From contig AP025252.1 of assembly GCA_016865505.2 (NCBI GenBank), forward strand, positions 5,106,137 to 5,170,136: 64,000 nucleotides of DNA, written 5' to 3'. Both the position numbers and the translations under genes were made by a program. Positions within the stretch are counted from its first letter, which is position 1. Every line of letters begins with the position of its first letter. This document shows positions 46,288-62,049 of this stretch, piece after piece. This DNA is from Bryobacterales bacterium F-183. GTDB taxonomy: Bacteria > Acidobacteriota > Terriglobia > Bryobacterales > Bryobacteraceae. A model generated the notes under the pieces. It saw only the letters and a list, made by a program, of their open reading frames with translations, was not told the origin of the DNA and did not search any database.

Positions 46288-46442
46288 GATTGTTGACCCT
46301 CTTCTTTAAGCAAACGTCTTACTGCATTAGAGGTCCGCTCCATCTGGCTTGACGACGCTTGTGGCATAAAGATTTTGGCCACGGCGCGGTGAGCAGGGTG
46401 GAGCGGTTTTTATTCTGCCCGGTCATGTTACGTTTCCCTCAT

Positions 46443-47729
46443 ATGCATGTGGACTTGGCGTTTGGCCGTACGGGCTTGCCCATTGAGTTGCCGGAGGGCC
46501 CGGTGTACCGGGTGTTAGAGGCGCGGGGGGCGACGCCGTTAGCGGATCCGGCGGCCGCGCTGAACGACGCTCTGGACCATCCAATTGGCTGCGCACCACT
46601 GGCCGAAATGGCACGTGGCTGCGCGAGCGCCGCGATATCGGTTTGCGACATCACGCGTCCGGCACCGAATCGCCAGACTTTGCCACATATTCTGAAGCGG
46701 TTGGAAGGTGGCGGGATCCCTTCGAGCGGGATTCGGATTCTCATCGCCACGGGACTGCATCGGGCCGCGACGGAAGCGGAGATTCTGGAGATCGTGGGGC
46801 CGGAGATCGCGGCGAAGTACGCGGTGCTCAATCACGACGCGCGCGCGTTTGCCGAGCACCGGCACCTGGGCAGCACAAAGTCGGGCATCCCGGTGTACAT
46901 CGATGAGCGGTTTGTGTCGGCAGACCTGCACATCACGCTGGGATTTATTGAGCCTCACCTCATGCTTGGGTTTTCCGGGGGACGCAAGTTAATTGCCCCC
47001 GGCTTGGCGGCGCAGGAAACGATAAAGGTGATTCATAGCCCGAAGTACATGCGGCACGCAAGGTCCGTGGAAGGCTCGATTCAGAACAATCCGCTGCATT
47101 ACGAACTGGTTGAGATTGCGAGCATGGCGCGGCACGACTTTATGCTGGATGTCGCGCTAGCGCGGGACCGGCAGATTGCCGGTGTGTTTGCCGGCGAGCC
47201 TGTCGCGGCGCATCGGGCGGGCGTAGAGTTTGTGTCGAATACGTTGCTGGAGTTGCTCGACGAGCCTGTGGATGCAGTGATCACGACAGCAGCGGGCTAT
47301 CCGTTGGACCTGACGTTTTATCAAACGGTGAAGGGCATCACGGCGGCGCAACACATTCTGAAGCCAGGCGGAAAAATTCTGGTATTTGGGGCGTGTACGG
47401 AAGGGCCTGGAGCGCCGGAGTTTCAGGAGATGCTGAGGAGCTTTGGGTCGTACAGTGCGTTTCTGGATACGATTCGGGATCGCGAAGTGATCGTCGATCA
47501 ATGGCAGATGGAGAAACTGGCGCTCGTTGGCGAGCGGTTTGAAGTGATGTTCTACACGCCGGGCTTGCCTGCCGAATTCCGCGGGTGTTTTGGGACGAAC
47601 ATGTTTGGGTCACCCGAAGAGGCTGTGGCGGATCTGGTGCGGCGGTGTGGACCCGGAGCGAGGATCGCGGTGATTCCCGAAGGTCCGTATGTACTGGCGA
47701 AAGTTCGCGAGGCGGAACTGGTAGGTTAA
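46443..47729 (+). CDS. larA: LarA-type nickel-pincer racemase/epimerase
   Basis: I start at the ATG at 46443 (428 residues); an ATG six codons upstream is possible. The LarA family marks are present: CDITRPAPNRQTLPHIL near residue 65, IATGLHRAAT with a catalytic His, HRHLGSTKSGIPVYID with the second His, and LGFSGGRKLIAPG. TTAAGYPLDLTFYQTVKG follows in the C-terminal domain. LarA relatives use a nickel-pincer nucleotide to racemise lactate or epimerise other 2-hydroxy acids and sugars acids. The cofactor genes larB, larC and larE are not in the window. It is followed after five bases by the DinB gene. Confidence 0.9.
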   Translation: MHVDLAFGRTGLPIELPEGPVYRVLEARGATPLADPAAALNDALDHPIGCAPLAEMARGCASAAISVCDITRPAPNRQTLPHILKRLEGGGIPSSGIRILIATGLHRAATEAEILEIVGPEIAAKYAVLNHDARAFAEHRHLGSTKSGIPVYIDERFVSADLHITLGFIEPHLMLGFSGGRKLIAPGLAAQETIKVIHSPKYMRHARSVEGSIQNNPLHYELVEIASMARHDFMLDVALARDRQIAGVFAGEPVAAHRAGVEFVSNTLLELLDEPVDAVITTAAGYPLDLTFYQTVKGITAAQHILKPGGKILVFGACTEGPGAPEFQEMLRSFGSYSAFLDTIRDREVIVDQWQMEKLALVGERFEVMFYTPGLPAEFRGCFGTNMFGSPEEAVADLVRRCGPGARIAVIPEGPYVLAKVREAELVG

Positions 47730-47734
47730 TACGA

Positions 47735-48244
47735 ATGAGTCCCGAAAAAGCATCAGTGATTTTGGAGTACGTCGTCGCCAATGCGCGGCGTGAGATGAAG
47801 ACGACGGCGAGCGTACTGGCCGCCACGCCGCAAGCGAGCTTTGACTATAAGCCGGCGGACAAGTATATGGATGGCGGTACGCTGGCATGGCATATCGCGG
47901 TGACCGAGGTGTTCTTTTTGGAAGGTGTCGCGACGGGGAGCTTCACAGGGAAGCCGCCAAGCCAGCCAGCGGACGTCGTCTCCGGCGAACAGATCGCCGC
48001 GTGGTATGTGCAGGAAGTCACCAAAGTGCTGGACCGTTGCGCGGCGTTGACGCCAGAAGAAGCAGCTCGTGAAGTGGACTTTTTCGGCGTGTTCCAAAAT
48101 CCGGCTTGTACGTTTGTCACGCTCGCGACGCAGCATACGATTCATCATCGCGGACAGTTGTCGGCGTACTTGCGGCCAATGGGCGGCAAGGTTCCAGCGA
48201 TCTATGGTCCAAGTGGGGATGAGAATCCGTTCGCTAAAGGCTAG
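47735..48244 (+). CDS. DinB-family protein
   Basis: I start at the ATG at 47735 (169 residues). The four-helix DinB fold is marked by three metal-binding histidines: H53 in GTLAWHIAVTE and the two in the HTIHHRGQLSAYLR segment. The tail GKVPAIYGPSG is typical of a large thiol-transferase-like subgroup. DinB-like proteins are often mycothiol- or bacillithiol-dependent transferases; in acidobacteria the thiol is unknown. It lies five bases downstream of the LarA gene and overlaps the convergent SpoIID gene by eleven bases. Confidence 0.92.
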   Translation: MSPEKASVILEYVVANARREMKTTASVLAATPQASFDYKPADKYMDGGTLAWHIAVTEVFFLEGVATGSFTGKPPSQPADVVSGEQIAAWYVQEVTKVLDRCAALTPEEAAREVDFFGVFQNPACTFVTLATQHTIHHRGQLSAYLRPMGGKVPAIYGPSGDENPFAKG

Positions 48245-48986: not shown

Positions 48987-49727
48987 TTAGGTGAGGATCC
49001 TTTTGGCGGCGATGGCGCCGGGTACGCCATGTTCGCGGACGAGGATCACACGGCGAGGTTGATCTTCCGGCCAGAGCCAGATGGCGAGTCCATCACCGGG
49101 CATGGGCTTCGAGTGTTCGCATGGCGCGGTACCGGTTTTGGCGAGGCCTTTGCCGATGGCTCGCGCGGTGCCTTGCGTGGCGCAGAGGCGCATACCTTCT
49201 TTGATGGCCGGATGCTGTGCCGTGACGCGAAGGTACGCCTGTAGCAGGGCTGCTGGAGGGATACGCCAACTGCGTCCCAAACCGAGACGAGCGTCGATGA
49301 TGTCCGGCGCTTCCGGCAGGCCGTACTCAGCGCAGACCAACTGCATCTGGCGAGGATCGACTCGCTGGGACAGTTTTTCAAAGTAGCGATTGCAGGAGAG
49401 GGCCAGCGCGCGCGGGAGGTTGACGGCGCCGTGTACCTTGCCGCCCCAGCAGCCCTTGCAGTTGACCGTTGGAAAGCGCTGGTGCGTACGTTCGTAGGCG
49501 AGCGCGGTGAAGGGCTTGACCAGGCTGCCTGGCAACACAGGTTGATCGGCGCCACCGGTCCAGGCGCGATCCCGCAACGTGGATGTCGCGGGATCGTATT
49601 CGATGCGGTCGACGTTGGTCGCGTTGGCGGCGTGCAGCGCCTTTGTACAGCAGGCCAGCAACGCCGTGCGCCGGCTAACTGCGCTTGCGTTGGTAGACCA
49701 CAGACTGCCGGACCACGTTGCCTTCAT
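48987..49727 (-). CDS. Minimal penicillin-binding transpeptidase-like protein
   Basis: The 246-residue protein holds all three active-site motifs of a penicillin-binding protein: SLVK (S68-K71, in PGSLVKPFTAL), SCN (S111-N113) and KTG (K197-G199). The spacing is compact, about 43 and 85 residues, compared with some 55 and 150-plus in ordinary class A or B enzymes. IPPAALLQAYLRV matches the usual helix after SxN. No pedestal or glycosyltransferase domain is present and no clear signal peptide. The first ATG lies 53 bases inside the upstream gene; a TTG at 49661 is another possible start. It has eight cysteines. SpoIID follows with no spacing. Confidence 0.78.
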   Translation of the reverse strand: MKATWSGSLWSTNASAVSRRTALLACCTKALHAANATNVDRIEYDPATSTLRDRAWTGGADQPVLPGSLVKPFTALAYERTHQRFPTVNCKGCWGGKVHGAVNLPRALALSCNRYFEKLSQRVDPRQMQLVCAEYGLPEAPDIIDARLGLGRSWRIPPAALLQAYLRVTAQHPAIKEGMRLCATQGTARAIGKGLAKTGTAPCEHSKPMPGDGLAIWLWPEDQPRRVILVREHGVPGAIAAKRILT

Positions 49728-51309
49728 CCTTCGTTTCCATTGTCACCGTTTCCACGCGACCAAGGACATCGCCGATGCTGGCGATGGTTTCGGAAAACAG
49801 CATGGGCGGACGCGGCGTGGTGGTGGGCAGCTTGGGAAAGTCCAGCATGCGCATCAGCCGTGCGTATTGGGCGTTCTCGGTGGCGTGGCGATAAACAGCC
49901 GTATGCGTGACGCCGGGCGCCGCGGCAGCAGCAGTATTGCCTCGCTTGGCGGCGATGCGATCGAGCAGCGGCTTGGAGTTGGACAGCGCGAGGATCTTGC
50001 CGTCGATGAGCACGTGTACCGGTTCGAGTCCAGAGGGTTCGACGCCGGAATCGCGCAGGGCACGATCGATGCTGTTGCGATCCCAATCACCCTGACCTCT
50101 GAGGAGGACGACGGCGCTATCGATGCCCGTGAACACGCCGTCGGCGAGTGTACGCGATGCGGCGACCTTCGCTGCAGCAACAACCGGCGCGGTGGAGCCT
50201 AGCTGCACGATGGGAAGCTGACGCACGCCGTTCTGCAGGAGCACGGGTTGTTCGGTGTCGATGCGCTGTTCGAGGTCGCCTTCGTCCCCGGCTTGCTGTT
50301 CCTGCGTCTCGCCGGGGGCATACAGCTGCGGCGCTGCGCCTGAGGCTTGGAGTTGCGGCGCGATCTGCTGGCGGATGAGGTACTGCACGACGGCCGCTTG
50401 GGGACGGGCCCAGCTTTGCGTGAAGCCAGCGTCCGACGGAAGGTACGGAAGCAGGGCCGCGAGCTGCGTGTTGGCTTCCACGGTTTGCGGTTCGGCGCGG
50501 ACGAGGGTGCGCTTTTCGGTCACATCGGCCTGGCCGAAGTAGAGATCCGACACGGTGGCGGTGTAGGCCTTGAGATCCGTGATGTTCTGCTGAATCCAGT
50601 AGGAGCGGAAGTGCGGGGTACGCACGGTGCGTTCCATATGAACGGTGAGGCGGACATCGGGCGCGTTCTGTGAAACTGCCGCGGCGGCCGCATCGGTGTA
50701 CCAACGTTCCTGACGCAGCGAGGTTCCGCCATTGCGAAGCAAGGTGAGCGAGTTGGCGACGAGGTCCTCACGCGTGGCGAGGACGAGGAGGTCGCCGACA
50801 ATGGCGAAGGCGACCGTGCCGTCGGTGGTTGCCTTTGTGTAGTAGGACTGGCCGGCGGCATTGCGCTGTTGGAACTTGGTACGCGCGCGGGTCAGCAGAT
50901 TGTCGGCAGCGCGCGCTTGCGGCAAACGCGTGAGGTACAGCATCTCAAGCTTGCCGATGTCGTAGACGGCCACGGCTGCGTCGCCGCCGGCGATGTTTTC
51001 GAGTAGCGCCAGGTCAGGGCTGACACCAAGGCCCGTAGCGTACTGATTTTGGACTTCGTCGAGACGCAGCGCGAGTTTACTGCGAATGTAGGTTTGGTAG
51101 GCGCTACTCGAGACCCAGGTCTTCTTTTCCGGTGACGCGTTCCAACTGGTGATGAGTGCGTTGGCGTCGCGAGCTTCCAAGGTGAGTAAGGCTCCTGGAG
51201 GGATGAGGTCCGGAAGCGCTTTTGTAGTCTGCGCCTGCTGCTGGGCGATGAGCCACGCAGTGGCGAGTGCGAGGGTCACGGCTGCGGCTGTTACGGTACG
51301 GCGATTCAC
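49675..51309 (-). CDS. DUF3352-like exported protein
   Basis: The 544-residue protein has a signal or anchor helix (MNRRTVTAAAVTLALATAWLIA). LIPPGALLTLEARD at residues 36-49 and the later AIVGDLLVLATREDLVANSL pattern recall DUF3352, secreted proteins of unknown function from many phyla. A second repeat of the same kind, VHVLIDGKILALSNSKPLLDRI, lies near residue 460. No cysteines seen. The start overlaps the giant TPR gene by four bases and the stop overlaps the mini-transpeptidase by 53 bases. E. coli YfaA (DUF2138) has a similar length; I could not test the match. Confidence 0.75.
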   Translation of the reverse strand: MNRRTVTAAAVTLALATAWLIAQQQAQTTKALPDLIPPGALLTLEARDANALITSWNASPEKKTWVSSSAYQTYIRSKLALRLDEVQNQYATGLGVSPDLALLENIAGGDAAVAVYDIGKLEMLYLTRLPQARAADNLLTRARTKFQQRNAAGQSYYTKATTDGTVAFAIVGDLLVLATREDLVANSLTLLRNGGTSLRQERWYTDAAAAAVSQNAPDVRLTVHMERTVRTPHFRSYWIQQNITDLKAYTATVSDLYFGQADVTEKRTLVRAEPQTVEANTQLAALLPYLPSDAGFTQSWARPQAAVVQYLIRQQIAPQLQASGAAPQLYAPGETQEQQAGDEGDLEQRIDTEQPVLLQNGVRQLPIVQLGSTAPVVAAAKVAASRTLADGVFTGIDSAVVLLRGQGDWDRNSIDRALRDSGVEPSGLEPVHVLIDGKILALSNSKPLLDRIAAKRGNTAAAAAPGVTHTAVYRHATENAQYARLMRMLDFPKLPTTTPRPPMLFSETIASIGDVLGRVETVTMETKDEGNVVRQSVVYQRKRS

Positions 51310-54300
51310 TGCACACCTCCTAATACGGCCGTTGCCGGCAACTGCGGAAGTTTGGGTTTGACGATCGCGTTCTGTTCGTAGTTTTCGTGGAAGACCGGCA
51401 TACGGCTTTCGTTGAAGCGTTGGAGTTGCAACGCGCGACGGGCGAGATTGATCAAGCGCGTCTCGCCTTCGATGCGCGAGGCGACCTCCAGCGCTTCATC
51501 GTTACGGCCAAGGCGGAGGTACGCATCGGCGAGGCGGCGCAGGTCGGCGGGGGATTCGATCTGATGCGGTTCGATGGACGACACAGCGGTCTGGAAGCGA
51601 TTGGCTGCTGTCGCAGCGCGGAACAGTTCGCGATGCGATTGGACATCGCCGGGCAACTGCGCGACCACACCGCTCCAGAGCCGCAGGCGAGCGCTGGCGT
51701 CGTTGGGAGTGCGCGCTGCGACATAACGGCGCAGGTCCAGGGTGTACGGCGATGCGGAGGCTTGTTGTTCGGTGATGTTCTGCTGCGCGCTGGAGAGCAG
51801 ATTGAGTTCCGTCTCACCGGCGATTTGCAGCGGCGCGGCCTTCAACTTTCGCAAGGCAAGAGCGGCATCCACGCGTACGGCGTACGGTGCCTGGGACGAT
51901 TCCGCTACCGCTTGTAGTGCGGGCGCGGAGCCGGAGGTACGAGCGGCAAGCAGTTGTACGCGAGGGTCCCAAGGTCTGGCTTTAACAAGCGCGTTGGTGA
52001 ACTCAGCGGCAGCCTGCGTTTGGCCGCGCGCGAGGAGCAGGTCCGCGGCAAAGGCGGTGGTCTCAAACGGGTCGCCCACGGTGTTGTTCAAGCGGCGGAG
52101 GATGTCCAGCGCCTCGGCGTTACGGCCCTGATCGAGACGGATACTGGCGAGGCCGAGGTACATGGCAGGGACAGCTTGCCGGTTGGCCGCGAGTTCGCGC
52201 TGATACAGATACTCGAGGAGCGGCTGTGCGACCTTAGGGTCCAATTGCGCGGCAACGGCCTCGATGGTTTCGGCGCTGTCGTTGCTGAGGCTGGTGAAGT
52301 CGCCGTTGAGCGTGGCAAGGTGTACGCGGAACTCATCGAAGCGAATCTGCTGCGCGGCGCGAACCTCTTCCGGCAATGCCTGAATGGCGGTGGCGGCACG
52401 GGCGGTCTCCTTACGACGTAGCAGGCTGGAGATCCAATCGGATTGCAGGCGGGCGGCGGTTGCGGCGGCTTGCACGCGAACCTCACCCAAGGTGGACTGC
52501 ACGCGGCGTAGCGCGAGTTGCGCGGCCGTTTCCGTGAGCGTGTCCTTCTGCGCTTGTGAGAGCCATGCGGCTTGGAGCAAGCTGGCCGCGACCTCGGCTG
52601 GCTCTGGCGCTGTATTGACGGCATCCAGAAGCGCGGCGGGATCGTTGGCGAAGACTTGCAGTACGTCGGGCGCTTGGTAGCCGCCGCGGGTACGGAAGTG
52701 GGTGCGAATGGCGGCGTCGATCTCGTTGCGAAGCGAGGCTGTGGCGTTGGCACGTGCGATATCGGCCAGCAGTTCGGGCAACTGGCCTTGCGGAGCGGCG
52801 AGAAGGTCGCGCCAGATGCGTACAGCCTCGTCGCGCTGGTTCAAGGCGTACTGCGCGGCAGCCATGCGGCGCAATGCCGGAGTCGACTTGGGCTGCAGTT
52901 CGAGCGCGTAGGCAAACTCGGTTACGGCTTTGTTCGCGTCACCACGATCGAGGTACAACTGGCCGAGGTCGAGGTAACGTTGGGCGGTCGCGGGGGACTC
53001 TTCTAGTTCCGCGGCGGCGTAGTCATCGGCGGCAGATGCTACGTTCTGGCCAAAGCGGGCGGCGTAGTAGAACCAGTCCTTGCCGGTGAGCTGCGCTTGA
53101 CGATCGGGCTTGGTGGCAAGCTGTTCTCCGATCGAGTTGGTGCCGAGCAGCGTACGGAAGGAGGCCTCATCGGGACTGCCGAGATACACGCTGGTGAGCG
53201 CGGTGTAGGCGCTGGTCCAGACGGGCGGGCGACCCTTGCCACGGGCGGCGAGGATGGCGTAAGCATCGGAGGGCTTGGCGGCAAAGACGCTGACCTTGGC
53301 CAAGGCATCACGCATGGCATCGGAGGTCTGCGGGTTGGTGGCGAGCGTTAAGGCCGGCGCACCCTGGCGGACCAGCAACAGCGCGTAACGATCCAGCATG
53401 TCGCCTTCGGCCGATTCCATGCGTACCAAGGCAGAGAGTACGCGAACCTCGCCCGCGGTGTTGCCGCTGGCGCGGTAGGCTTGCGCAGCCTCGCGCAGGA
53501 TGCCGCTGGCTTGATCTCCAGCGCGCGCCGGGATACGGGCCATGGCTTCGAGTTGCTGGCCAAGTTCATCGAATCGGCCGCGGGTACGCTGCAGGCGGAC
53601 GAGTTCGTACATGTTGTCTTTGGTGACCGACGCGGCGAGCAGCGATGCTTCGACATCGGCGAGTCCGGCGGCTCTGGCGAGCTCGAGACTACGCGACGTT
53701 CGAAGGGTGGCGGCAAAGGCGGCCTTCTCTTTGGGCGTGTAGTATTGTGCGACCACGGGTCCGATCATGCTGGCGTAGTTGGCGCTGGACGCAGGGAGCG
53801 GCTGACGAAGGCGAGCGGCGATGACCGCCTGCATCCCAGGCGTCGCTTTGGTGGCGATCGCCGACGCTTGCGGGACAAGGTTCCAATCGAGCAAGCGAGC
53901 GATGACGATGTCAGGCTGCTTGTCAAGGTAGGCGTCCTTGAGGGTCGCGACGGCCTGCTCTGTACGGCCCAGGCGCAGGTGCTGTTCGGCGACCTTCTCC
54001 ATCCAGGCGGGGTCGCGGTAGCTGAGTTCCCAGACCTTCTGATAGGTCTTCAAAGCATCTTCAAACTGCAGTTGGCGCTCTTCGCGCTTGCCTCGCGCGA
54101 TCATCAGGTCAGCGCGGTCGGGACGGATGGCGGTGGCTTTGCTGAGCGATGCCAAAGCATCGGCGGGCTGGTTCCATTCCGACTGCATACGGGAGAGGAT
54201 CAAGGGCCAGCGGAGGTCCTTGGGCGAGTCATTGACGGCCTTTCTGTAGTAGCTGTCGAGGTATGGCTGGATGTTGTTGGCAAGGGCAAAGCGCGCGGCT

Positions 54301-57300
54301 TCACGCGCGAGACCGTCATCCTCGGGGAAGGTACGCAGCAGTTCGATGTACTGATCGGCAGCGGCGTTGAAGTCCTTCTGGCGGATGAGCACCGGGATGA
54401 GATTGCGGCGCAGGCCATCCACGGGTACTTTTGCAGCGCGAAGATCGGCGATGGCTTTGGCGTACATCGCCTTCAACCCTGCGTCATCCTTACGGGCGGC
54501 GTAGTACGCAGCGGCAAGTGCCAGGTACTCAGAGTTGGCGGGTTGCGCGGCCAGCAACTGATCGGTGAGGCGCTTGGCTGTGTCCAGATCCTGCGCGTCG
54601 AGCGAGCGGCGTACGGCCTCGGCGCGGAAGGCGTTGGGGTAGCTGCCCTTGGCCTTTGTGGCGGCTTCGGCCAGGATCGATGCGGAACGCTTGGGGTCCT
54701 TATTGCGGGCGTAGAAGTTGGCGGCGGTGCGTACCACGCCGAGCAACATCGGGTTCTGGCCGTACGCCTGATCGATGATGCGCGCGGCTTCTGCGGTGCT
54801 GCCGCGGGCTTCGAGGAAACGCGCGAGGTCGAGGCGGGCGCGAAGCTTGGCGGTGTCATCCGAGGCGAGTTCGATGCGGCGCTCCATGGCGCGACGTTCG
54901 AGTTCCGGCATTGCGTTCGAGGCAGCGGCGCGTTCGGCGCGTGCCAAAACGTCGATGGATCGCGTACTCTGCTGGAGGTTTTGCAGATAGCGTTCGAGGT
55001 CGGCACGGCGGTTCTGGCTTTCGAGTAGGTCGATGCGGAGTTCTGCGGCTTGCAGGTTGCCAGGATCGCTGGCTTTGGCGGTAACGGCCTTCTCCACGGC
55101 GTCTCGCAGGGTAGGGCGTGCGGCGAGACGAATGAGGCGGAAACGTGCGCGTTCGCCGTTGGCGCCGCTGAGTGCACCGGTGACGTACTCTTCGATGGCG
55201 CGGTTGTAGTCACGCTGATTTTCGCGGATCGCGCCGGCTTCATACGCGCCCATGGCGGGGTCCTTGAGGCGCTTGCGGCCTTCTTCGATCGTACGCAGAG
55301 CGTCGTCAAAGCGGAAGTAGTCCCAATAGAGAGTGGCGGCTTCGATTGCGCCTTCGGGCTTGCCGGGCTCGATGTTAGGGATGGTGTCCCAATAGGGTTT
55401 GGCAGCGTTGAAACGTTCGCGATCAGCTTCCATTTCGCCGAGGCGCGTGATGGCTGCGGTATCGCGGGGGTCCGCTTTTACGAGGTTGCGCTCGATGTTC
55501 GCCGCGATGTCGAACTGGCCGAGCGAGCGATGTAGCGATGCGGCGCGAACGTCCACAATCGCGTCGGCGGGCAACTGCGTGGCGACGGCGCGAATGGGTG
55601 CAGCGGCGTCCTCATAATGGGTGCGCCAGATCTCGCCTTCTGCGAGCAGGCGCGCGGCGATGGCGTTGTTCTTGTTGGTGGCGACGACGGCGCGGATGGC
55701 GTCGAGTTCCGCTTGCAGGCGGTTGGTGCGCTGCAGCAGCGCGAAGAAACGCGCACGAAGGTCGTCAGCTTCAAACCAATGCTGGCGCAGAAGGCGCTCA
55801 TACGCAGCGGGGTCTGCCGTGGGGCGCGATTCGTAGGTCGCGAGAAGGTTGCGGACGAAGGTCAGGTTGTGGGGAAAGCGCTGGTGGGCGTACAGATTCA
55901 GCTGCTGCGTTGCCGCCGCGCCGAGTCCACTGCCGGGTACGACTTGCTGGAAGTACGCTTCAAGACCTGTGCCGGAGAAGGTCTGGATGAGATCTTTGGA
56001 CAGTGCCTCGAACTGTGCTGTTTGCTTGCGCATCAGGTACCAACGCGCGAGGCGATTGGCCCAGCCTTCGTCCTTGAACTTGGCGAGCGCCTGCTTGTAG
56101 ACCTGCTCGGTTTCGTTGCCCAACTTGTTCTGATCGAGGAACACGGCGAAACGCTCGTAAAGGCCGGGGTCACTTGCGTTGCGGTCGATTTCCTGGCGGA
56201 AGACGGTGAGCGCTTGGGGTACGCGCTTGAGGGCGACGAGGCGCGCGACGTAACGGTCAAGCGCGCGGACATAATCTGGCGAGTTGACCTTGGACGGCGA
56301 GCCTACAGGGGTGTTCCCGGCCTGCGCGGCGAGTTGCTTCAGCAATACGTCGTAAGCGGCGAGTTCCTCGTTGACTTGATTCGTGGCGGCGTAGGCGTCG
56401 GCCATCAGGAACGTGACGCGGAGGCTCTGCGTCGATGAGGCGAAGGCTGCGAGAAAGGCTTTGCCAGAGCGGATGACACCCTGACGGTCTCCATACGATG
56501 CATAGGACTCGATGAGCTTGGCGGACAGCTCAGCGCGTGCGGCATTCGCGGGAAAGCGTTTGGCGATGACGTCCAAGAGTTCAGAAGCCTTGGCGCGATG
56601 GAAGTACGCACGGGAGGCTTGATTTTGTTGGTCGAACTCCCACGGTATGCCTTGCGTGTTGAGGATGAGCGACAGGACGCCGTTCAGGTAGCCGGGACCT
56701 TGGTCCATGGTGGCGATGTCGCGATAGAGTGCGAGGTCGCCCATGCCGATGTGCATGTCCTGATCGGGCATCTGCAAAAGCAGGCGCGCAACTTCGACGA
56801 TGCCTTGTTCGTTGTCCGCGAGGTAGAGAGATTCATACGCACGGGCAGCTTCTGCGGGCATCTGCGCCTTTTCAAACAGGCGGCCGAGGGTACGCCATTC
56901 GGTGGCGGTGAAGGTCTTGGTTTTGTTGCGAACTTCGAGCAGCGCGTTCTTGGCGGCGATGGGATTGTTCAGGCGATTCTGCAGGTGAAAGAGCTTGGCC
57001 GCGGTCTGCAGGTCCGACGGGTTGCGGAGCTTGGCGAGTAGCTGACGGTCGCCGACCACTTCAAAGAAGCGGGCGATGGTTTCGTCGGGCCAGAGCGGGT
57101 CAAACGCTTCATCCCAGATTCTGGCGGCATTGGTTGCGTTGCCTTGCGCGAACTCAATGTCCGCAGCGGCGCGGGTGGAAAATGCACGATCGTCGGGGAA
57201 ATTCTGACGATAGAGTGCCACCACTTCGCGCGCCAGGGCCGGGGTGCGCGCCTGATTGTTGAGGTACGCGAGGGCTTTTTCATAGAGCGCCTGATCCTTG

Positions 57301-57806
57301 GGGAACTTCGCGACCCATGCACGGTACTGGCGCGCGGCGAGGGCTTTGTCCATGGCCTGTGCGTCGATCAGCGCGATGCTGCGGGCAAAGGCTTCCGGCG
57401 TTGCGGCGGCGGTGAGGGCTTCGAGTTCCTGGGTGGGTTGTAGGCGGCGATGGTAGTAATCGGCGAGGTCGATGTGGCGGCCGGTGAGTTCGACGTACTT
57501 CTTCCAGTCCGCTTCGGCGGCGGTAAAGTCGAGTTGGCGTTCGGCTTCGAGCGCGCGGAGCGAGTAGAGTTGAGCTTCTGCAGGCGCGGCCGCGATGAGC
57601 TTGCCGAGTTCTACGCGGGCTTCGGCGGGCGCGCGGCGGGCGGCGACGGAGCCTGACGGCAGTGCGACAGATTCAAAGAACACCGCGTCGAACTTGCTGG
57701 ATGCTTCAATGTCCTGCAGGAAGCGCGAGAGGTTGGCGCGCGCGGGTCCAAAGGCGACGAACAGCGCGGCGGCCGAGGCGATGACGGCGTTACGGAATAA
57801 CTTCAA
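51306..57806 (-). CDS. Giant exported TPR protein, 2166 residues, cysteine-free
   Basis: The protein starts with a signal peptide (MKLFRNAVIASAAALFVAFGPARA). The rest is a nearly continuous array of helix pairs, tetratricopeptide-like, with units such as LADYYHRRLQPTQELEALTA, GQLYLDRGDANKAVTEFAYA and LADAYLRLGRNDEALEVASR. I see no catalytic domain, no membrane helix after the signal, and no cysteine anywhere. That is consistent with a periplasmic or surface solenoid. It starts 17 bases inside the VIT/VWA gene and ends overlapping the DUF3352-like gene. At 6.5 kb it is the largest gene in the window and the central part of the envelope operon. Confidence 0.88.
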   Translation of the reverse strand: MKLFRNAVIASAAALFVAFGPARANLSRFLQDIEASSKFDAVFFESVALPSGSVAARRAPAEARVELGKLIAAAPAEAQLYSLRALEAERQLDFTAAEADWKKYVELTGRHIDLADYYHRRLQPTQELEALTAAATPEAFARSIALIDAQAMDKALAARQYRAWVAKFPKDQALYEKALAYLNNQARTPALAREVVALYRQNFPDDRAFSTRAAADIEFAQGNATNAARIWDEAFDPLWPDETIARFFEVVGDRQLLAKLRNPSDLQTAAKLFHLQNRLNNPIAAKNALLEVRNKTKTFTATEWRTLGRLFEKAQMPAEAARAYESLYLADNEQGIVEVARLLLQMPDQDMHIGMGDLALYRDIATMDQGPGYLNGVLSLILNTQGIPWEFDQQNQASRAYFHRAKASELLDVIAKRFPANAARAELSAKLIESYASYGDRQGVIRSGKAFLAAFASSTQSLRVTFLMADAYAATNQVNEELAAYDVLLKQLAAQAGNTPVGSPSKVNSPDYVRALDRYVARLVALKRVPQALTVFRQEIDRNASDPGLYERFAVFLDQNKLGNETEQVYKQALAKFKDEGWANRLARWYLMRKQTAQFEALSKDLIQTFSGTGLEAYFQQVVPGSGLGAAATQQLNLYAHQRFPHNLTFVRNLLATYESRPTADPAAYERLLRQHWFEADDLRARFFALLQRTNRLQAELDAIRAVVATNKNNAIAARLLAEGEIWRTHYEDAAAPIRAVATQLPADAIVDVRAASLHRSLGQFDIAANIERNLVKADPRDTAAITRLGEMEADRERFNAAKPYWDTIPNIEPGKPEGAIEAATLYWDYFRFDDALRTIEEGRKRLKDPAMGAYEAGAIRENQRDYNRAIEEYVTGALSGANGERARFRLIRLAARPTLRDAVEKAVTAKASDPGNLQAAELRIDLLESQNRRADLERYLQNLQQSTRSIDVLARAERAAASNAMPELERRAMERRIELASDDTAKLRARLDLARFLEARGSTAEAARIIDQAYGQNPMLLGVVRTAANFYARNKDPKRSASILAEAATKAKGSYPNAFRAEAVRRSLDAQDLDTAKRLTDQLLAAQPANSEYLALAAAYYAARKDDAGLKAMYAKAIADLRAAKVPVDGLRRNLIPVLIRQKDFNAAADQYIELLRTFPEDDGLAREAARFALANNIQPYLDSYYRKAVNDSPKDLRWPLILSRMQSEWNQPADALASLSKATAIRPDRADLMIARGKREERQLQFEDALKTYQKVWELSYRDPAWMEKVAEQHLRLGRTEQAVATLKDAYLDKQPDIVIARLLDWNLVPQASAIATKATPGMQAVIAARLRQPLPASSANYASMIGPVVAQYYTPKEKAAFAATLRTSRSLELARAAGLADVEASLLAASVTKDNMYELVRLQRTRGRFDELGQQLEAMARIPARAGDQASGILREAAQAYRASGNTAGEVRVLSALVRMESAEGDMLDRYALLLVRQGAPALTLATNPQTSDAMRDALAKVSVFAAKPSDAYAILAARGKGRPPVWTSAYTALTSVYLGSPDEASFRTLLGTNSIGEQLATKPDRQAQLTGKDWFYYAARFGQNVASAADDYAAAELEESPATAQRYLDLGQLYLDRGDANKAVTEFAYALELQPKSTPALRRMAAAQYALNQRDEAVRIWRDLLAAPQGQLPELLADIARANATASLRNEIDAAIRTHFRTRGGYQAPDVLQVFANDPAALLDAVNTAPEPAEVAASLLQAAWLSQAQKDTLTETAAQLALRRVQSTLGEVRVQAAATAARLQSDWISSLLRRKETARAATAIQALPEEVRAAQQIRFDEFRVHLATLNGDFTSLSNDSAETIEAVAAQLDPKVAQPLLEYLYQRELAANRQAVPAMYLGLASIRLDQGRNAEALDILRRLNNTVGDPFETTAFAADLLLARGQTQAAAEFTNALVKARPWDPRVQLLAARTSGSAPALQAVAESSQAPYAVRVDAALALRKLKAAPLQIAGETELNLLSSAQQNITEQQASASPYTLDLRRYVAARTPNDASARLRLWSGVVAQLPGDVQSHRELFRAATAANRFQTAVSSIEPHQIESPADLRRLADAYLRLGRNDEALEVASRIEGETRLINLARRALQLQRFNESRMPVFHENYEQNAIVKPKLPQLPATAVLGGVQ

Positions 57807-60108
57807 GGGACACCTCCTGGCTGCCGATGTTGTGCGCGAAGTCTTCCGCTGTAACCGTCAGCGTGTACTTGCCGACCGGTAGATGCGCGGGTATGGTCAT
57901 GGCGCCGGTGTTCGACTTGTCGTCCGCGCTCCAGCGCAGGAACACTGGCGCGGCGCCGGGCATACGGGCGGCGATGGTACGCGTAGAGGCTGAGGCGCTC
58001 ACACGCATCTTCATCGACTCGCCGGCCTTGTAACGAGCCTTGTCGAGCGACACACGAACCACAGGCGCCTGGCTGGCGATGACAAAGCTTTTGGATTCGC
58101 GATAGATGTTGCCTGCTTTGTCCTTCAACAGGAGTTGGACATGGTACGTACCTTCGCGCATGTCGGGCGGCGCGAGAAAGCGCGTCTGCCAAGTCTGTTC
58201 GCCATCGAGGTAGCGGAGCGGCTTGACCAGACCGAAGGGGAACATCGCGACGACGCTCTTGATGCTGGGGTCGGTCTTGATGCGAAGTACGGGGTCGCCG
58301 GGGCGGATCAGGCGCGGGCGAAGCAGTGCGCGAGGCGCGGCGAGGAACGACGTGTACGGCGTAACGAACTTGTACTTGCGCGAGAGGCGGATGATCTCGT
58401 CGATGGTGGCTGCGTCTTCGCCGTCGCGATCGATCTTTTCAAGTAAGGCGTCCACACGAGCCTTGGCCCATTCGCGAGGCAGATAGTCGTTGTTGAGGGC
58501 CGTGCCGCCCGGCAGGCTGGTGGAAGCACTGGCACGCAGCGGCTTGGTGTTGTCGCGGTTGCCGGTGACGCTGAACTCCGCACGCGCGGCGGCGTTCTGG
58601 AACTGGCCGACCCATGCGGGATTGGAGCCTGGGAACGCAGTGTCCTGCAATGGGTACACGAGGCTGACGGGTACGGAGGAGGTGAGGCGCAAGCCGTCTA
58701 TGGCGCGGACGCCGATCTTGGACAGGAACGAGTTGAGCTTGAAGTCGATGGGTTCACTGGAGCGTACCCATTCAAAGACGCCGTTGTTGCGCGCCAGCAT
58801 GCGGAGGAGCGGCAGGTTTGCGTCGTCACCCACGCCGAAGACATAGACGCGAGGCTTGACGGTAGCGGCGCGCCACTTGGTAGCGAATGCTTCGGCGAGC
58901 TTGCCGGTGTGTACGGAACCGCGAGTGGCACCGCCGTCGCCGAGGACGATCAGGTAGCTTTCGGGGGTCGCGTTGTTGGCGGCGGTCTGCGCAAGGCCTG
59001 CGTCGAGCGCGGCTTTGAGATTGGTTCCGCCCCGAAGGCGTAAAGACTTGACGAAGGCGAGCGCGGCGTCGACCTGCGCCGGCGTTGCGGCGGTGGCGTT
59101 GGGCGCGAAGGAGGCGACGGTCTCGTTGTACACCAGGACGTTGAATTTGTCGTTCGGCGTGAGCCTACGCAGTACGGCTTCCAAAGCCTGGAAGCTGCGT
59201 TCCAGCTTTTCCCACTGCATGGACAGTGAGGCATCGAAGAGCGCGACCACGGTACGAGGTGCGGCCGCGGGTGTTGCGCTCACGGCGGGGTTCATCGCGA
59301 GCAGCGCCTGCGCTTCAAAAAAGCCAGGTTCCATGCTGTTTTCGCGATAGGTGGCGACCTCGACAGCGTCCCCGCGAGTCGCGTCCAGCGCGTACTCGAT
59401 GGTGAAGTCTTCGGTGAACGCAACGTTGGTGCCGTCGAACTTGGCAACGATGCGATTGGGCGTACGTTCGGAGATCTTGAGCGGATACGCTTTGCTCAAG
59501 GTTTGAAAGTCACGGAACTTGTGGTGGCCCGTGATGTCGAGTTCCAAGGTGAAGCGGGCGGCGCTTTGCTGCTTGAACGAACTGGGGCGGAGCGGAATGG
59601 TGAGGCGCCCCTTGAGGTTCTCAATGGCGATGCGTTCGCGATACTCGATTTCCAAACGCTTGTTGCCATAGCCGGGGATGGGTACGATGCGTGCTAAAAA
59701 TACAGCACTGCGGCGGGCTTCGTCCTCGCCGCGCTCGCCCTGCTGCAGAAGGCCGGGATCGATGGCCTGGGCGCGGATCTCTTCGTAGAGTTCTTCGGCG
59801 CGCTTGCGTTCGAGGATCACGCCCGGGATGCGGGTGACGTCGTCCCACACGGCAAAGTCCGATATGGCAGCTCCGGCGGGCAACGCGAATGTGTAGGTGC
59901 CCTCCATCACTTCGGGCTTGCGATTTTGAAAGACCTGTCGCACGTTGACCTTGGCGTGGCCATTGACCACCGCGATCTTGACGTGCATTTCCGCAAGGGA
60001 CAGGATTGTGGGATCCGGTTCCTGTTTGTCGCCTGGCAAAATGACACCTACGTCTGCCTTTAAGAGAAGACAGCCGAGTGTGCCCAGGGTCAATAAAAGT
60101 CGTCGCAT
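57790..60108 (-). CDS. Exported VIT and VWA domain protein
   Basis: The 772-residue protein has a signal peptide (MRRLLLTLGTLGCLLLKADVG). The VIT domain spans residues 35-170: VRQVFQNRKPEVMEGTYTF, FAVWDDVTRIPGVILERKRA and ARIVPIPGYGNKRLEIEYRE. The VWA domain begins about residue 285 with an intact metal site, DASLS (D292, S294, S296), a later RGGTNLKAAL and GDGGATRG. A final Ig-like region follows (KAGNIYRESKSF onward). Such proteins bind other proteins in a metal-dependent way. The gene starts six bases after the propeller gene ends and overlaps the TPR gene by 17 bases. Confidence 0.93.
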   Translation of the reverse strand: MRRLLLTLGTLGCLLLKADVGVILPGDKQEPDPTILSLAEMHVKIAVVNGHAKVNVRQVFQNRKPEVMEGTYTFALPAGAAISDFAVWDDVTRIPGVILERKRAEELYEEIRAQAIDPGLLQQGERGEDEARRSAVFLARIVPIPGYGNKRLEIEYRERIAIENLKGRLTIPLRPSSFKQQSAARFTLELDITGHHKFRDFQTLSKAYPLKISERTPNRIVAKFDGTNVAFTEDFTIEYALDATRGDAVEVATYRENSMEPGFFEAQALLAMNPAVSATPAAAPRTVVALFDASLSMQWEKLERSFQALEAVLRRLTPNDKFNVLVYNETVASFAPNATAATPAQVDAALAFVKSLRLRGGTNLKAALDAGLAQTAANNATPESYLIVLGDGGATRGSVHTGKLAEAFATKWRAATVKPRVYVFGVGDDANLPLLRMLARNNGVFEWVRSSEPIDFKLNSFLSKIGVRAIDGLRLTSSVPVSLVYPLQDTAFPGSNPAWVGQFQNAAARAEFSVTGNRDNTKPLRASASTSLPGGTALNNDYLPREWAKARVDALLEKIDRDGEDAATIDEIIRLSRKYKFVTPYTSFLAAPRALLRPRLIRPGDPVLRIKTDPSIKSVVAMFPFGLVKPLRYLDGEQTWQTRFLAPPDMREGTYHVQLLLKDKAGNIYRESKSFVIASQAPVVRVSLDKARYKAGESMKMRVSASASTRTIAARMPGAAPVFLRWSADDKSNTGAMTIPAHLPVGKYTLTVTAEDFAHNIGSQEVSLEVIP

Positions 60109-60114
60109 GTTGTT

Positions 60115-62049
60115 TTACGGCACCAATACCTGTTCTTCGATCCGTACCAAACCGTTGTCGGTCCCCGCGTAGACGATGCCGTTTTGGACGGCTACCGCGG
60201 TGACATTGAGAGAAGGCAAACCGTCGCGCACAAAGTGCCAGCGGTTGTTGGACTTGTTCCAGACGGCGAGTCCTTTGCCGAGGGTCCCGGCATAGGCGCC
60301 ACGGGGGCTGGCGGCCATCGCGTTGGGGTTGACCTCGAAGCCGCGCACATTGGGCTGCGTGAGGTCTGGAAAGCTTTGCCATGTGCCGTCGGGTCCAAAG
60401 GCGAGGACACCCGCGCCGTACGTACCGACCAAGCAACTTGTGCCTGTGTCCGCGATGGCGGTGATCCAGTTGTGGCCGAGCGTGGAGTTGGCTGTGGTGT
60501 AGCTGGCTTTGACCAAGCCGCCTTCGATGGCGGAGAGTCCACCGAGGGTGCCCGCAAGGAGCTTGCCGTGGCACTGGCCGAGCGCGTATACGTGATTGTT
60601 CACGAGGCCGTGAAAGGCATAGATGCTGGAGGCCTCGCCGCGTGCTTCCAGAAACGTTACGCCGCCGGGGGTGGAGACGGTTAAGCCTGCGCCGCTGGGC
60701 CGCAGCAAAATGTCGGTAGCGTGATTCGCGATCAATCCATCCGCCTTGCGCATGACCCTTTGGATTTGTCCCCCTGCATCGAGGAATGCAAGTCCATTGC
60801 CAGTGGCCACGACGGTGCGCAGATTGTCGCGATCGTGCACGATGCGGTTGACGCAGAAGACGGTGTCGTCCTCGACGTGTCGCGCGGTGGATGTACCGTC
60901 GGCGGTGTCGAGGATGTCGAGTCCACGGTCAAAGTAGCCGATCCAGAGCCTGCGTCCGCCGTCTTCGGGAGCCAGCGCGGCGATGTTGCCATCGGCGAGC
61001 CTCGATTCGGGAGCGCGAAGGAGTTCCTCGTCGCTGCCCGAGAGCAGGCGAGTGGGCGTAAGCACCATTTCACGGCCATTTGGCGTGAAAAACACCTTGC
61101 GGATCTCACCTTGGGCAAGCGCTTCGGTCTGGCGGCGGAAGGGCTTGGGCGCACGCTGTTCCAGCGGGACTTCCAGCAGGCCGTCTTCCAGGGTGCCGAC
61201 GAGCAGGGTGTTCTTGCGCAGCGCGATGGTAGAGACAAACTGTCCGGCGGCGAGTTGGCGTTGGAACGTACCGTCGCGAAACTCGGCGATGCCCAACGGG
61301 GTGCCGACCCAGACACGAGCGCCGTCTATTTCGATACACAGAATGCGCTTGTCGGGTACTGGGGTGACGGGTTGCAGTTGGCCTGCGCGATAGCGGAACA
61401 AGCCTTGATCGAGGGTGCCGATCCAAAGGTCGGACTCATCGGTGCCGGCGATGGCGGTGACGCGTTTGTTGCGGAGAAGGTCCTGCAGGGGGGCAAGACC
61501 GCGGGCGTCATGCGCGAGGAGTCCTGCACGATCCGTGCCGAGAAGGACACGGCCGTTGCTCAGGATATGCAGGGACAGCAGCTTTTGATCGCCGATGGCC
61601 ACTTGGCGCCAGCTGTCGCCATCGAAGGCGAGGTAGCCGGCGTGTTGGGTGGCGACGAGAAGTTCGGGTCGCGCGGCGCCGGCGGGTGTACCGGTGCGAA
61701 GTGCAATCAAGGCGGACGGCGGCAGTTCAAATCCGGCGCGATAGGACGCGATCTTCGAACCGTCACGGTACTGGGTGAGTTCAGAGGAACTGAGCACAAA
61801 GAGGTCGCCACCGAAGAGCGCGGCGTCGACGTAGCCGGAGGCGGCGCCGCCGATCCAGGAAAATCCGGAAGGCGCGCGACGATCGAGTGCGGCGGCGGTG
61901 AAGGTTATGGTGCCGTTGGCGGCCACATCGCGGGAGGCGGCGTCGAGCGCATCGCCCGCGCGGGTTATGGATCGCGCTGCGAATACCAGGGCGAGCGTGC
62001 ATACGGCGACCGCTCCACCAATCATCCACAACCGCTTGTTCTTGCTCAT
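60115..62049 (-). CDS. Membrane-anchored two-component-regulator-type beta-propeller protein
   Basis: The 644-residue protein has an N-terminal helix (LWMIGGAVAVCTLALVFAA, residues 7-25) and then repeated four-stranded blades of the Reg_prop kind: ESDLWIGTLDQGLFRYRAG, GARVWVGTPLGIAEFRDG, NGIVYAGTDNGLVRIEE. These are the extracellular sensor modules of hybrid two-component systems, but here no kinase or DNA-binding domain is attached. It is the first gene of the envelope operon, with 98 bases to the MATE gene upstream; the rest follows with tiny gaps or overlaps. Likely a sensor or adaptor. Confidence 0.85.
   Translation of the reverse strand: MSKNKRLWMIGGAVAVCTLALVFAARSITRAGDALDAASRDVAANGTITFTAAALDRRAPSGFSWIGGAASGYVDAALFGGDLFVLSSSELTQYRDGSKIASYRAGFELPPSALIALRTGTPAGAARPELLVATQHAGYLAFDGDSWRQVAIGDQKLLSLHILSNGRVLLGTDRAGLLAHDARGLAPLQDLLRNKRVTAIAGTDESDLWIGTLDQGLFRYRAGQLQPVTPVPDKRILCIEIDGARVWVGTPLGIAEFRDGTFQRQLAAGQFVSTIALRKNTLLVGTLEDGLLEVPLEQRAPKPFRRQTEALAQGEIRKVFFTPNGREMVLTPTRLLSGSDEELLRAPESRLADGNIAALAPEDGGRRLWIGYFDRGLDILDTADGTSTARHVEDDTVFCVNRIVHDRDNLRTVVATGNGLAFLDAGGQIQRVMRKADGLIANHATDILLRPSGAGLTVSTPGGVTFLEARGEASSIYAFHGLVNNHVYALGQCHGKLLAGTLGGLSAIEGGLVKASYTTANSTLGHNWITAIADTGTSCLVGTYGAGVLAFGPDGTWQSFPDLTQPNVRGFEVNPNAMAASPRGAYAGTLGKGLAVWNKSNNRWHFVRDGLPSLNVTAVAVQNGIVYAGTDNGLVRIEEQVLVP

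Follow-up and report, generated by a model that had tools for sequence, protein, structure and literature searches.

The window analysed here is a stretch of 64,000 nucleotides from the soil-type bacterium Bryobacterales F-183, and its minus strand carries five genes that abut or overlap one another (Table 1). They encode a VIT-VWA protein, a giant TPR protein, a conserved protein designated p544, a compact protein designated mini-PBP and a SpoIID-domain protein; the VIT-VWA gene is the most upstream one found conserved in the cluster. Six bases further upstream, 60115-62049 (-) encodes a protein of 644 aa that matches a Reg_prop propeller and was not detected in 40 loci of relatives, many of which end before its position. 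From the opposite strand, lactate racemase-like and DinB-family genes (46359-48244, +) converge on the cluster.

Table 1. Features of the cluster, in window positions, and relatives in which two of its genes are fused
Feature	Position	Strand	Remarks
SpoIID-domain protein, partner gene, 250 aa	48234..48986	-	PF08486 E 1.4e-14, 54.9 bits against a cutoff of 23
mini-PBP, compact SxxK transpeptidase-family protein	48987..49727	-	246 aa from ATG 49727; alternative start TTG 49661
KTG (K197-G199), followed by invariant T200	49131..49139	-	invariant in 40/40 rows
SCN (S111-N113), SxN motif	49389..49397	-	invariant in 40/40 rows
SLVK (S68, K71), SxxK motif	49515..49526	-	S and K invariant in 40/40 rows
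p544, conserved 544-aa protein	49675..51309	-	no Pfam family at E <= 1
2166-aa TPR protein	51306..57806	-	PF14559 and other TPR models; overlaps p544 start by 4 bases
772-aa VIT + VWA protein	57790..60108	-	PF08487 E 1.2e-19, PF13768 E 1.5e-17
Fused mini-PBP-SpoIID loci			L086-L091, L093, L094, L096, L100, L105-L107, L109, L110

The original prediction had placed a compressed penicillin-binding active site at 48987-49727, with SLVK, SCN and KTG in that order, and had named no strand. The plus-strand frame is interrupted by a stop, and the open reading frame is the minus-strand one, in which the three motifs follow each other as predicted with S68, K71, S111 and K197 at the proposed positions. 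When the window's 291 stop-to-stop frames of 100 aa or longer were scanned for an ordered S..K / S.N / K[TS]G chain at PBP-like spacing, mini-PBP was the sole carrier, and shuffling of its protein sequence reproduced the chain in 8 of 20,000 trials. The start codon is uncertain, since L031, the closest relative (JAFDVT010000625.1, 'Acidobacteria bacterium isolate SZAS-8'), lacks an ATG opposite ATG 49727 and its own ATG aligns with TTG 49661.

Searching the 237 genomes of the window's family with the single mini-PBP sequence, a query that misses divergent members, returned matches in 85 genomes at E <= 1e-3, 56 of them strong (E <= 1e-10); 18 of the 29 weaker matches lie within 2 kb of a SpoIID gene. 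Alignment A1 combines the window's protein with those of 39 of the loci L037-L076 (of these 40, L041 was omitted as close to L075) and includes three divergent rows, and the core alignment A4 retains 33 of its 40 rows, without L048, L050, L052, L053, L054, L055 and L073. Two further alignments, A2 and A3, comprise the window with 24 of 31 and 29 of 36 relatives found, respectively. Inspection of A1 revealed S68, K71, C90, S111, C112, N113, F116, G186, T187 and K197-T200 to be invariant in all 40 rows, that is, the catalytic residues of the three motifs and the GT preceding KTG. The dN/dS ratio between mini-PBP and its sister L031 is 0.18, similar to those of the neighbouring SpoIID (0.18) and p544 (0.17) genes, and mini-PBP is under purifying selection. 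The suggestion that the protein might be degenerate is therefore contradicted by both its invariant catalytic residues and its dN/dS ratio.

In the 33 core rows the total length is 206-282 aa, with 38-48 residues from SxxK to SxN and 64-99 from SxN to KTG. A hydrophobic N-terminal stretch is found in 23 of these rows (threshold 1.6) and an RR motif of the twin-arginine type in 11. The window's protein has SRR followed by a weak hydrophobic stretch scoring 1.32, below the threshold. The predicted lack of a clear export signal is thus correct only in part, and the window's protein may itself be exported. In L075 and L076 (genus g22), mini-PBP starts at MNxxLYS... with no visible signal peptide or RR, and the motifs are intact. 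Scanning viral contigs with profile A4 found no relative.

Assignment to the penicillin-binding transpeptidase family was examined at several levels. PF00905 matches mini-PBP marginally (23.4 bits against a curated cutoff of 22.1, E 4e-5), and a genome-wide PF00905 search at E <= 1e-3 returned four other genes and not mini-PBP. The NCBIfam PBP2 model gives E 2e-9, far under that model's full-length cutoff. Across the 40 rows of A1, PF00905 matches 38 and the PBP2 model all 40 at E <= 1. These profile matches place mini-PBP within the family, though at its margin. A PDB search with the single mini-PBP sequence gave chance-level matches (best E 0.27), and among the best 60 of 106 matches to profile A1 the closest solved relatives are the PBP chains 7rd0, 4ztk, MrdA, SpoVD and FtsI, with E down to 1.5e-20. 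From these matches to solved PBPs, SxxK, SxN and KTG likely meet in one pocket; an AF2 model computed from a two-sequence alignment (A5, the window and L031) has a mean pLDDT of 31.2, too low for use.

Neither class A, class B nor the class D/BlaR1 group accommodates the protein in full. Against class A, there is no GT51 glycosyltransferase domain, and PF00905 is the only Pfam assignment in the 246 aa. Class B comes near in that the transpeptidase domains of PBP2/MrdA and FtsI are among the best solved relatives of the profile; mini-PBP, however, has no N-terminal pedestal, its SxxK serine being already residue 68, and its relatives are similarly short. Nor does the family fit class D, whose model matches 1 of 40 rows (E 0.027), or the BlaR1 sensors, chains of which the family profile matches weakly. 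The predicted stand-alone protein with neither pedestal nor glycosyltransferase is thus what the sequence holds, and its small size was correctly noted, yet a fold of under 250 residues is less exceptional than had been supposed: profile A1 weakly matches BlaR1 chains of 255-262 aa and beta-lactamases of 250-255 aa (E 7e-4 to 2e-3), which gives a fold of this size a precedent. Compared with an ordinary PBP of the same genome (L032), where the corresponding spacings are 68 and 128 residues, the motifs of mini-PBP lie closer together; the motif-chain pattern finds L032 and misses the other three PF00905 genes of the genome. One of the genome's genes, the PBP2-type L033, has a C..C / HG / SC.SYF stretch in common with mini-PBP.

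A tree of 67 of 68 sequences (PbpC gave no segment; 11 of the 15 fused proteins described below were included) splits 61 mini-PBP rows, YfaQ of E. coli among them, from 6 classic rows with a support of 99/96. By this sequence comparison mini-PBP is a separate branch of a known superfamily and not a categorically new class. The term 'new minimal class' was accordingly too strong, all the more since the pairing of a transpeptidase-like with a SpoIID-like domain is already known from the published description of YfaQ (PMC12282094).

The gene downstream of mini-PBP is the sole PF08486 match of the genome at E <= 1e-3. Its family profile matches the solved SpoIID structures 4rwr, 5i1t and 5txu over 165-178 profile positions (E 2.5e-26, for 4rwr, to 2.9e-25). 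The catalytic residue of SpoIID is a glutamate, and the invariant glutamate E99 is kept in the relatives of the window's protein. The protein differs from the solved ones in being shorter (250 aa versus chains of 330-354 aa) and in its partner, which is a transpeptidase-type protein rather than the amidase SpoIIP, the usual partner of SpoIID.

The tie between the two genes, proposed in the original prediction, is borne out well beyond the window. SpoIID is encoded in 55 of the 56 genomes with a strong mini-PBP, within 2 kb of it in 44 and elsewhere in 11 that belong to one genus; the exception is G069, whose mini-PBP match (21-443) is at the edge of a contig. The 11 genomes belong to genus g10 and each encode SpoIID once, away from mini-PBP; none is seen beside mini-PBP in the g10 loci L037, L040, L042, L043, L047, L062, L072 and L074. 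Fisher's test, which ignores shared ancestry, gave P 2.6e-14 and 5.8e-38 for co-occurrence of SpoIID and p544, respectively, with a strong mini-PBP.

In a sample of the phylum, profile A1 matches 296 of 396 genomes at E <= 1e-10, although many of the matches listed are confined to the SxxK-SxN stretch of PBPs of ordinary length. The best 30 phylum-level loci, the window's included, carry the motif pattern with one exception (L107). SpoIID follows mini-PBP in the same open reading frame in 15 of these 30 loci (Table 1) and is encoded by a nearby gene in 14 (with a gap of about 750 bases in L081); L092, the one locus without it, ends there. Pfam analysis of 10 of the 15 fusions placed both domains above cutoff in L091, L100, L105 and L110 and both below cutoff in L086, detected a sub-cutoff transpeptidase alone in L087 and L089, and found nothing at E <= 0.01 in L088, L094 and L096; the fusions weak in Pfam rest on our own profiles, with SpoIID at E 5e-8 to 4e-11. 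On the tree, the fused rows need three changes, at least two of which are forced. Mini-PBP and SpoIID are, as far as gene order and fusions tell, a unit.

The remaining genes of the cluster accompany this unit in the window's family. The 40 mini-PBP loci contain p544 in 36, TPR in 34, SpoIID in 31 and VIT-VWA in 28 cases, numbers that are to be read with the fact that many loci are cut by contig or region ends, often inside or before VIT-VWA. Genome-wide, p544 is present in 52 of the 56 genomes with a strong mini-PBP and in nine genomes without one. Five of the genomes with p544 (G011, G041, G042, G169 and G172) are missing both a strong mini-PBP and SpoIID, as would be expected had the two been lost jointly, and in two of them (G011 and G042) the p544 match is interrupted by a stop. 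G092, G094, G095 and G097 have a p544 match broken up into two or three segments around profile positions 315-340, perhaps through an insertion or a frame change.

Three loci from elsewhere in the phylum (L111, L112 and L115) show a TPR-like protein of 2400-2540 aa (to the locus start), then a protein of 507-542 aa and then a fused mini-PBP-SpoIID protein of 582-735 aa, an arrangement that is a variant of the window's cluster. The gene in the p544 position resembles p544 in L111 (507 aa, 70.9%) and hardly does so in L115 (12%). Identification of p544 with YfaA (DUF2138) was considered and rejected, as there is no similarity (0.1%). Among the papers listed in literature searches, judged by title and opening of the abstract, none deals with a VIT-VWA/TPR/p544/mini-PBP/SpoIID cluster.

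A different gene setting emerged from other relatives. In L124 and L125, mini-PBP and SpoIID lie beside DUF1175 and a full alpha-2-macroglobulin (a2M) gene, and in L117 the pair is near the macroglobulin. Taking all 142 SpoIID places and the MG2 (a2M) places above the Pfam cutoff (105 genomes; in 18 more, MG2 is matched below the cutoff only), we found MG2 4.7-6.7 kb from SpoIID in 50 of the 139 SpoIID genomes among the 237 of the family. It is near SpoIID in 49 of 84 genomes without p544 versus 1 of 55 with p544 (G229), a comparison that ignores shared ancestry, and the other 35 of the 84 have no MG2 within 10 kb of SpoIID. Twenty of the 50 loci were fetched and contain a2M and SpoIID in every case, a YfaT-like (DUF1175) gene in 19 and mini-PBP in 17. 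The three without mini-PBP are L129, which is cut off, and L130 and L142, which are not cut off and have room for it; all 17 mini-PBPs beside a2M retain the S..K/S.N/K[TS]G pattern. Two partner sets that seldom occur together thus accompany the SpoIID/mini-PBP pair: DUF1175-macroglobulin and VIT-VWA/TPR/p544. The DUF1175 protein of L125 (2667-3347) also has an NLPC_P60 match just under cutoff (E 4.9e-4), so that a third peptidoglycan enzyme may be encoded in the macroglobulin loci. Elsewhere in the window's own genome a2M, DUF2135 and DUF2300 were sought and rejected, neither MG2 nor DUF2135 nor DUF2300 (PF10062) giving a match at E <= 1e-3.

The macroglobulin setting recalls the yfa genes of E. 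coli. In YfaQ (b2226), GSLWK, SCGLYF and VKTW lie in the N-terminal half, which is followed by a SpoIID-like stretch, so that a transpeptidase-like domain precedes a SpoIID-like one in the order of the window's two genes, with SxxK kept. YfaQ ('tandem DUF2300') is a single polypeptide, whereas the window has two genes, and SCG and KTW stand there in place of the SCN and KTG of mini-PBP. The surroundings differ as well: yfaQ has as neighbours yfaP (DUF2135), yfaS, which we take to be the a2M gene (a pseudogene in K-12), yfaT (DUF1175) and yfaA (DUF2138), while the window has VIT-VWA, TPR and p544. YfaQ has been described as bipartite, transpeptidase-like and SpoIID-like, and its deletion gives wider cells (PMC12282094); the accessible part of that paper mentions neither a split form of YfaQ nor gene settings of the window or macroglobulin type.

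Alignment with hhalign of the 33-row A4 with the single YfaQ sequence gave 88.5% (P 2.7e-6) over YfaQ 42-217 and paired SLVK with SLWK, SCN with SCG and KTG with KTW, and the SpoIID profile matched the C-terminal half at 65% (P 6e-5) over 303-411; the control, YfaA, gave 0.1% with each profile. By profile comparison, this shows the first half of YfaQ to belong to the same superfamily as mini-PBP. Its match is not specific, however, since A4 aligns with E. coli MrdA as well as with YfaQ (91.2%, P 1e-6). HMMER with the wider profile A1 gave YfaQ at E 7.6e-10 in the set of 68 sequences, ahead of MrdA (3.2e-8) and FtsI (3.1e-8) and behind the genome's own PBP2-type gene (6.4e-21), and with the core profile A4 did not list YfaQ at E <= 10. 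In phmmer searches of a small set, YfaQ retrieved relatives of SpoIID (best E 1.6e-7) and no mini-PBP row at E <= 1. Because MrdA scores equally and both HMMER with A4 and phmmer miss the match, it is chiefly the order of the domains, the fusions and the gene setting that link mini-PBP to YfaQ; a kinship with YfaQ in particular, closer than with PBPs in general, would follow from these. The place of YfaQ in the tree is unsure owing to its long branch (3.39). The model of YfaQ's own Pfam family, DUF2300 (PF10062), matches none of the 40 mini-PBP rows at E <= 1, for which reason we do not file the mini-PBP family as a member of it.

The Pseudomonas aeruginosa mag operon encodes MagA-F, in which MagD is the macroglobulin and MagB, of 589 aa, presumably belongs to the YfaQ family. 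The relatives' macroglobulin loci resemble it in joining a YfaT-like (DUF1175) gene, a2M, SpoIID and mini-PBP; the window's genome differs from it in having no MG2 match. MagB stabilises MagD and ties the MagD complex to the inner membrane (PMC5764988). In a further study, magD confers protection from VgrG3, a peptidoglycan-cutting effector, and limited protection from Tae1, gives none against TseH and is dispensable under attack by B. thailandensis, and the exact molecular protection mechanism of the type II (Mag/Yfa) macroglobulin systems is said to be still to be elucidated (PMC12663445). The available parts of the two papers report no enzyme activity of Mag proteins (PMC5764988, PMC12663445).

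Three other explanations of mini-PBP have to be weighed. It could be a catalytically idle scaffold, a pseudoenzyme that binds peptidoglycan or partner proteins and holds SpoIID as MagB holds MagD. The stabilising and tethering role of MagB (PMC5764988) and the altered SCG and KTW of YfaQ would fit such a protein, but the residues of the three motifs are invariant in 40 of 40 rows, and their pattern is kept in 29 of the 30 phylum-level loci (not in L107) and in 17 of 17 mini-PBPs on the a2M side, which makes an idle scaffold unlikely. An ordinary house-keeping DD-carboxypeptidase or endopeptidase, sharing its transcript with unrelated envelope genes by chance, seems improbable as well. It would be left a minor role, the essential reactions presumably being carried out by the four ordinary PF00905 genes that the genome has elsewhere, and its similarity to PBP2 is as strong as that to YfaQ; a chance neighbourhood is nevertheless hard to reconcile with the 15 of 30 loci in which it is fused to SpoIID and with two partner sets that alternate around a constant SpoIID/mini-PBP pair.

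A beta-lactamase or beta-lactam sensor of the class D or BlaR1 type is very unlikely. Profile A1 does match BlaR1 and beta-lactamase chains (E about 7e-4 to 2e-3), and the spacings of the 33 core rows, 38-48 residues between the two serines and 64-99 from serine to lysine, resemble those of class D beta-lactamases. PBP chains match far better, however (down to 1.5e-20), the class D model detects 1 of 40 rows with E 0.027, and SpoIID is the constant neighbour.

We therefore favour, with a probability of roughly 0.6, the reading that mini-PBP and SpoIID form an active periplasmic pair of peptidoglycan-editing enzymes, a split relative of the YfaQ component of Mag/Yfa envelope-protection systems in a version without macroglobulin. 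As predicted from its motifs, mini-PBP would be a compact serine acyltransferase of the SxxK superfamily, periplasmic and probably active, whose S68 would attack stem peptides of the D-Ala-D-Ala type as a transpeptidase, carboxypeptidase or endopeptidase, and its SpoIID partner would cut glycan strands. The two may act as the peptidoglycan-editing enzymes of a single machine, the pair being a split form of the two-domain module whose counterpart would be YfaQ in E. coli and presumably MagB in Pseudomonas. VIT-VWA, the giant TPR protein and p544 would replace macroglobulin as the scaffold and thereby stand in functionally for the DUF1175-macroglobulin set, and these large proteins may form a complex that holds the enzyme pair at sites of wall damage. 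The role would be repair or protection of the wall, as the mag operon, with its action against peptidoglycan-cutting T6SS effectors, suggests by analogy. More tentatively, we regard the VIT-VWA/TPR/p544/mini-PBP/SpoIID cluster as a candidate for a second, undescribed Mag/Yfa architecture, in which a VIT-VWA-TPR scaffold takes the place of macroglobulin and the pair represents the working enzymes that gave rise to the N-terminal half of YfaQ in its altered form.

For structural studies mini-PBP offers a transpeptidase-type protein of very small size, and a two-protein YfaQ-like component with intact active-site motifs would permit a direct test of peptidoglycan editing in a system without macroglobulin. 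If the more tentative reading is true, the VIT-VWA/TPR/p544/mini-PBP/SpoIID cluster itself would be a self-contained machine for the repair or guarding of the cell wall.
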